From the NCBI RefSeq assembly GCF_001263175.1, contig NZ_CP012332.1, forward strand, positions 3,802,220 to 3,866,219: DNA of 64,000 nt. The letters run 5' to 3'. Within the stretch, counting starts at the first letter, position 1, and each line of letters starts with the position of its first letter. The position numbers were made by a program, and so were the translations under genes. Under the pieces are notes generated by a model. That model did not search any database, was not told the DNA's origin, and saw nothing but the letters and a program-made list of their open reading frames with translations. Below, in pieces: positions 37,739 to 38,251 of the stretch. This DNA is from Vulgatibacter incomptus. GTDB taxonomy: Bacteria > Myxococcota > Myxococcia > Myxococcales > Vulgatibacteraceae.

Positions 37739-38251
37739 GTGGATCGACGCGTCGCACCCGCCGTGGCCGCGGTGCTGCTTGCCACGGCCGCCTTCGTCTT
37801 CGGCCCTGCCGAAGGCTCGGCCCGGACCGCGGACCAGGCCCCCCTCGCCTCCAAGCGCTTCGACGACAAGCTCTTCCTCGCGATGTCCATCGCGGATGAG
37901 AAGGGGACCGTCCTCGCGGAGCCCAAGCTCCTCGGCATGTGCGGCGTGCCCCTCGAGATGAACCTCGTGGAGCCCGGCGCCCTTGAGATGCCCCGCGTCA
38001 GCCTGGTCCTGCAGCCGGAGTGGCAGCGCGACGGGAGCTACGAGATCGCGTTCGAGCTCTCCGTGCCGGGACGGATCGACCGGGGACGCGGCACCATGCG
38101 CCTGCGCCCGGGCGAGGAGAAGAGCGCCCAGGTCAGCTACCCGGGCGGTCACTTCGACGTGCAGCTCGCCGCTTTCGCGGTCCCCTCGCCGGAGTTCAAG
38201 CTCTACCTGGAGCACGGCGCCCGCCAGCTCATCCAGGCCAGCCGGACCTGA
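37739..38251 (+). CDS. secreted protein of unknown function, first gene of glnB operon
   Basis: The 170-residue product starts at GTG 37739, with GGGAAGGGAG 8 bp upstream. It has a signal peptide (residues 1-28, ending EGSA) and a single beta-rich domain ([22 protein letters not shown] ... [23 protein letters not shown] ... [11 protein letters not shown]). No family was recognised. It ends 7 bp before glnB, so it is almost surely cotranscribed with the nitrogen regulators, which is odd for an exported protein. Confidence 0.75.

Follow-up and report, generated by a model that had tools for sequence, protein, structure and literature searches.

The 170-aa exported protein encoded directly upstream of glnB in Vulgatibacter incomptus (hereafter EXP) is probably a general envelope protein of the Myxococcales with a predicted secretin-core fold; its adjacency to glnB would stem from gene order, with a probable joint transcript and possibly partial translational coupling. 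The window, the whole stretch of 64,000 nucleotides analysed here, comes from a single-contig genome of 4,350,553 bp. A sequence-only reading of this DNA had described an unknown signal-peptide protein that ends 7 bp before glnB and leads the glnB-ntrB-ntrC cluster. Our analysis bears out this description: stop and start codons are spaced as stated (Table 1), the domains and order of glnB, ntrB and ntrC are those of a canonical PII/NtrBC nitrogen-control operon, and EXP has no credible match in Pfam, NCBIfam or PDB sequences.

Table 1 Features of the EXP-glnB region in the window, with comparison loci in related genomes
Feature	Position	Strand	Details
LEA_2-domain gene	34490-35317	-	near mreB; N-terminus lipoprotein-like by eye
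YdjM-type inner-membrane protein gene	36542-37534	-	divergent from EXP; a homologue adjoins EXP in G001 too
Terminator-like site	37671-37687	+	upstream of EXP; the only such site found on the + strand
EXP ribosome-binding site GGAAGGGAGG	37722-37731	+	duplex energy -11.3 kcal/mol; G001 homologue preceded by a similar arrangement
EXP	37739-38251	+	170 aa; GTG 37739 to TGA 38249-38251
EXP domains (model)	residues ~42-149; 151-169		secretin-like beta domain; C-terminal helix
EXP-glnB gap	38252-38258	+	7 bp; no + strand terminator-like site; weak glnB SD (-3.2 kcal/mol) lies within the EXP 3' end
glnB (PII)	38259-38597	+	112 aa, ATG 38259; PF00543 at 2.8e-35
ntrB-like histidine kinase gene	38657-39616	+	319 aa, start as predicted; HisKA, HATPase_c
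ntrC-like sigma-54 activator gene	39688-41133	+	481 aa; Response_reg, Sigma54_activat, HTH_8 (Fis-HTH)
HEAT-repeat protein gene	41205-42875	+	lipobox-like N-terminus by eye
HEAT-repeat gene, G001	L032:10147-11643		directly 3' of EXP
A4 lipoprotein gene before glnB	L131:3721-4242
A4 lipoprotein gene before glnB	L134:4331-4852
A4 lipoprotein gene before glnB	L136:2868-3389
A4 lipoprotein gene before glnB	L135:3214-3753
A4 lipoprotein gene before glnB	L069:8799-9341
A4 lipoprotein gene before glnB	L065:10235-10726
A4 lipoprotein gene before glnB	G026:C178:17803-18324
Cysteine-rich protein gene, G014 (f9)	L067:10345-11028		66-72 nt upstream of glnB, same strand

Two observations favour the GTG at 37739 as the EXP start: a strong Shine-Dalgarno (SD) sequence, AAGGGAGG, precedes it, and the EXP homologue of G001 shows a similar ribosome-binding site and GTG (SD -7.9). 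The anti-SD duplex energy of AAGGGAGG, -11.3 kcal/mol, compares with a 1% point of -11.2 kcal/mol among 500 random 22-mers from the window. G001 belongs to the family of the window genome (f1, two genomes including G001), and its EXP homologue shares 58-61% identity with EXP. A codon score favoured coding for the ORF, and EXP homologues among the Myxococcaceae are under purifying selection (dN/dS 0.17-0.42 in 12 non-independent pairs). The distribution of the family, the dN/dS values and the ribosome-binding site ruled out a spurious ORF; a paralogue in the window genome was rejected as well, the second match being at chance level (E 0.18). Read by eye, the N-terminus comprises two arginines, a hydrophobic stretch and an AxA-like site followed by RTADQ, and residues 1 to ~30 form a predicted signal peptide.

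EXP represents an uncharacterized family without curated annotation. Neither a nitrogen-binding nor a sensor family was credibly matched in Pfam, NCBIfam or PDB sequences; DUF2505 was rejected, as it reached 15.1 bits against a cut-off of 26.9 over 40 residues in one of 26 family members, and the rows of the remaining members were at chance level.

No terminator-like site was found on the + strand between the cluster genes. This, together with the spacing, argues for cotranscription of EXP and glnB, and EXP-glnB-ntrB-ntrC is a probable single transcription unit. At the chosen threshold, no sigma-54-type site was detected in 36.4-41.3 kb, and so none before EXP or glnB; a sigma-70 scan of 36.4-43.5 kb returned no promoter, a result of little weight in a GC-rich genome.

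An AlphaFold2 model of the window EXP with 32 homologues showed a nine-stranded beta domain plus a C-terminal helix, with pLDDT block means of 85-94 across residues 41-160. When Foldseek candidates, and these only, were re-ranked with a structural aligner, 28 secretin rows came out on top and the next protein followed at Z 7.0; InvG was aligned with Z 11.9 (106 residues, rmsd 3.6 Å) and GspD with Z 10.9 (130 residues including the C-terminal helix, rmsd 3.4 Å). The model of the Myxococcus xanthus homologue gave the same picture, with 27 secretin rows at Z 8.7-12.3 and the next protein at 7.0, and its match to pIV had Z 12.3 (102 residues, rmsd 2.7). In both predicted models, the secretin beta-domain fold ranked first, the top rows all being secretins at Z 8.5-12.3 versus 7.0 for the next protein. 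The predicted strand arrangement of residues 42-149 resembles the C-terminal beta domain of secretins (PF00263; InvG, GspD, PilQ, pIV, RcpA), and in type II secretion system secretins the C-terminal helix is matched as well. With Foldseek alone, neither model had a match at E<=0.001: for the window protein a de novo design was best, followed by secretins at E 1.5e-3 to ~1e-2 with low TM-scores, and for the M. xanthus homologue no secretin was among the 50 matches listed. In a viral fold library, the one match at E<=0.001 was an uncharacterized 114-aa protein of a marine phage.

Clear EXP homologues were obtained in a search of 60 relatives; 26 of the 28 proteins found, two near-copies being left out, were aligned as A1, the source of the EXP profile. 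The mature part of this profile matched 29 secretin domains, taken from 32 secretin loci of related genomes, with probability 67, and five of the 29, a subset that we labelled Tad-type, with probability 80; neither value was reached by any of 60 column shuffles. The match was weak for a second alignment, A3, with probabilities of 4.5 and 6.3 and scores reached by 2/60 and 0/60 shuffles. A3 is rich in Myxococcaceae and holds 33 rows, namely the window protein and 32 proteins used from 37 read out of 45 loci; the window protein plus 29 of the A3 loci proteins make up a further alignment, A5. The EXP-secretin profile alignment shares a core pattern A-x-P-x-L ... G ... L-x-P, and the EXP profile also weakly hit the secretin locus G015:C1 (E 2.4e-4). 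EXP is probably a remote relative of the secretins.

This raises the question of whether EXP could be a genuine secretin of very small size, building a ring in the outer membrane, as the secretin-core fold in two models and a lipobox in part of the family would allow. We consider this very improbable. The beta domain and a single helix take up the ~140 residues of mature EXP, and a protein of 170 aa leaves no room for periplasmic N-domains; a VPxxxxIPxxGxxF-like motif, seen in related genomes' secretin domains, is missing from EXP by eye; no PF00263 match was found at E<=0.1 in any of the 26 members; and the EXP core spans ~105 residues as compared to 152-187 in those secretin domains. As it lacks N-domains, a VPxxxxIP-type motif and a Pfam match, we conclude from the models that EXP is a stand-alone secretin-like domain and not a secretin.

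The EXP family is widespread in the order. Its profile matched 120 of 145 Myxococcales genomes, each of them once (E<=1e-5), and 103 of 115 when only good genomes were counted; M. xanthus, too, has a homologue. In a phylum-wide sample it matched 122 of 195 genomes at E<=0.001, the two extra ones being of the same class. Since the rows of the profile were drawn from the same genomes, these counts describe the family and are no independent test. A lipobox pattern was present in 15 of 33 rows of A3 and in 1 of 26 rows of A1, which fits a mature EXP that is periplasmic or, for some members of the family, membrane-bound.

Neighbours of EXP vary by family, judged from gene order and a Pfam scan of one member per family. 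Pyruvate kinase, M24 and MBL/NUDIX genes flank it in f6, which we take to be an Anaeromyxobacter-type family, aldehyde dehydrogenase and PTS genes in f7, and AA-kinase/PUA and HflX-like GTPase genes (HflX-like being our label) in f4, which takes in Corallococcus, Myxococcus and Citreicoccus genomes. In f1 the neighbours are YdjM and HEAT. In the closest relative, G001 (92% complete), the order is MreB-YdjM-EXP-HEAT-AtpB, and no glnB was found although EXP is present; in the window, mreB likewise lies beyond the YdjM-type gene upstream of EXP, and the HEAT-repeat gene follows ntrC. Among the EXP loci labelled, the EXP-HEAT order occurs in G001 only.

The sequence-only reading had gone further and cast EXP as an extracytoplasmic component of PII/NtrBC signalling. 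Such a dedicated part of nitrogen control might sense or scavenge nitrogen compounds in the periplasm, and joint production with PII and NtrBC would keep sensing and response matched. This proposal was not supported by the comparison across 145 genomes, in which EXP and PII do not co-occur and are distributed independently: 62 genomes have both, 58 EXP only, 15 PII only and 10 neither (Fisher p 0.51), where PII was counted at E<=1e-10, so that distant PII-like proteins are excluded, and some genomes are incomplete. Thus, 58 of the 120 EXP-bearing genomes, including G001, have no PII match at this threshold. Moreover, no binding-protein family or fold was found for EXP, the NtrB of the window has no sensor-domain match at E<=1, and the absence of a sigma-54-type site at the threshold used likewise speaks against a nitrogen role, which we regard as quite unlikely. 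As a separate observation, a PII match at E<=1e-10 is missing from 68 of the 145 genomes, for example in the f4 genera g21, g5 and most of g24; these include Corallococcus- and Myxococcus-type genomes, in which nitrogen control may lack a classical PII.

Linkage was scored in the 20 of 62 genomes that carry both genes on one contig, the 42 with the genes on different contigs being set aside. EXP abuts glnB in one of these 20, the window genome, so the linkage is not conserved. In all 11 same-contig f6 genomes, the two genes share a strand, with EXP 1.7-25 kb upstream (five more f6 genomes have EXP and PII on different contigs), whereas the distance is 50 kb in one f7 genome and 0.5-4.8 Mb in seven f4 genomes. 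Linkage confined to this genome, which the sequence-only reading had named as the result that would refute it, was therefore largely what we found: direct adjacency is restricted to the window, but the f6 colinearity softens a strictly unique linkage. The f6 cluster has the same glnB-ntrB-ntrC order as the window, with EXP upstream on the same strand in the one-contig cases. It differs in that glutamine synthetase follows ntrC (locus tested: L049) where the window has the HEAT gene, in a better glnB SD (13 genomes), and in an opposite-strand alpha/beta-hydrolase-like gene directly upstream of glnB in 12 of 13 loci, the position held by EXP in the window. These hydrolase-like genes are at L049, L054, L055, L056, L057, L059, L060, L071 and L144-L147 (one Pfam-tested, the rest assigned by eye).

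A different exported protein precedes glnB in other families. The gene of a ~173-aa lipoprotein (A4) immediately precedes glnB, in the same orientation and with gaps of 12-245 nt, in six f7 genomes (G023, G026, G029, G035, G044 and G047) and in G008 of f8. The A4 lipoprotein had no Pfam match and did not match secretin domains (probability 0.1), and it is apparently distinct from EXP. Its family has matches in 93 of the 145 genomes; it stands at glnB in all six f7 genomes with a match, while the window genome and f4 genomes like G070 carry it at other places. As in the window, an exported-protein gene thus directly precedes glnB on the same strand, with a gap of 12 nt in two genomes; unlike in the window, glutamine synthetase follows glnB at L131 (G035, f7) and ntrBC is absent. 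Exported proteins of widespread families have thus moved in front of glnB on at least two occasions. Together with the f6 colinearity, these f7 and f8 arrangements could reflect some selected link, and they count, as do the 7-bp spacing and the shared strand in the window, among the points in favour of a nitrogen role.

They also bear on the statement that an exported component in such an operon has no obvious precedent. The literature searched, which took in few subscription papers, named neither an exported protein in a myxobacterial PII/NtrBC operon nor a stand-alone secretin domain; in gene order, an exported neighbour of PII is not peculiar to the window, given the A4 genes before glnB. 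In glnK-amtB pairs, PII is encoded beside an envelope protein gene, as in the window. However, AmtB sits in the membrane as an integral channel to which GlnK binds, whereas EXP, as a predicted exported domain, would not meet cytoplasmic PII.

The SD sequences raise the possibility of a link at the level of translation. The window glnB SD is weak (-3.2 kcal/mol, against a random-site median of -4.0), compared with -6.6 to -7.2 in 13 f6 glnB genes. Translation of glnB may therefore be coupled to that of EXP, and termination-reinitiation from EXP onto glnB is hinted at by the sequence. A same-strand exported-protein gene precedes eight of 37 glnB genes (window, L065, L069, L131, L132, L134, L135 and L136), and the five weakest of the 37 SDs (window, L069, L131, L135 and L136) all fall among these eight; in three of the five, glnB starts 7-12 nt past the exported-gene stop. 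The cysteine-rich protein encoded before glnB at L067, where the glnB SD is -7.1, may also be exported and was left out of the eight.

In its strongest form, EXP would be a translational leader whose strong ribosome-binding site and reading frame set the amount of PII, such that EXP export or mRNA decay affects PII and no nitrogen function is needed. The clustering of the five weakest SDs behind exported-protein genes, the short distances in three of them and the strong EXP SD speak for such a leader. Four of the five, though, belong to one family (f7), and the upstream sequences of L131 and L136 are identical, leaving only about two events. Weak SDs are also common in the window, where -3.2 is within the usual range (59 genes with script-called starts: median -5.6, weakest quarter above -2.7, ntrC -3.3). 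Furthermore, the gap in two of the five (56 and 245 nt) exceeds what simple reinitiation would allow. SDs of -5.0 to -7.6 occur in three of the exported-gene cases, and SDs of -6.4 to -11.6 in five f4 genomes where the start of glnB and the gene before it overlap by 4 bp. We therefore regard a leader role as unlikely. The overlapping f4 genes (L137-L141, five genomes) encode proteins of 442-450 aa, and the one scanned, L140, has methyltransferase and glycosyltransferase-2 matches.

The reading we prefer, a general envelope protein placed beside glnB by gene order, would combine these observations as follows. EXP would be a stand-alone exported beta domain that most of the order keeps as a single copy and that some of its genomes apparently encode in a lipid-anchored form. 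Its site of action would most likely be the periplasm or the outer membrane, independently of nitrogen status. An envelope role is suggested by the predicted fold and the signal sequence, and EXP may bind or scaffold envelope machinery via its secretin-type beta surface. In an ancestor, EXP probably preceded glnB-ntrB-ntrC in the same orientation. The simplest history would have EXP and glnB-ntrBC close together in a presumed common ancestor of f1 and f6; in the window the two would have become adjacent, with nothing left between them, and the cluster would have been lost in G001. With a weak SD of its own, glnB may owe part of its translation to ribosomes that terminate on EXP 7 bp before its start. 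The place of EXP beside the nitrogen genes thus seems mostly an accident of gene order.

A more far-reaching conjecture, to which we give very little credence, is that stand-alone secretin-core proteins form a new class of Myxococcales envelope factors, perhaps as assembly partners or regulators of full secretins, and that the EXP message took over initiation of PII translation here, tying nitrogen signalling to envelope protein synthesis; the same device would have arisen separately in f7 with another lipoprotein. On the preferred reading of EXP as a general envelope protein, a speculative nitrogen sensor is replaced by a testable family that is exported, present once per genome and predicted to adopt a secretin-core fold. 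EXP would then be a clear case of operon position misleading about function, and the dependence of PII translation on an upstream exported-protein gene could be tested cheaply.
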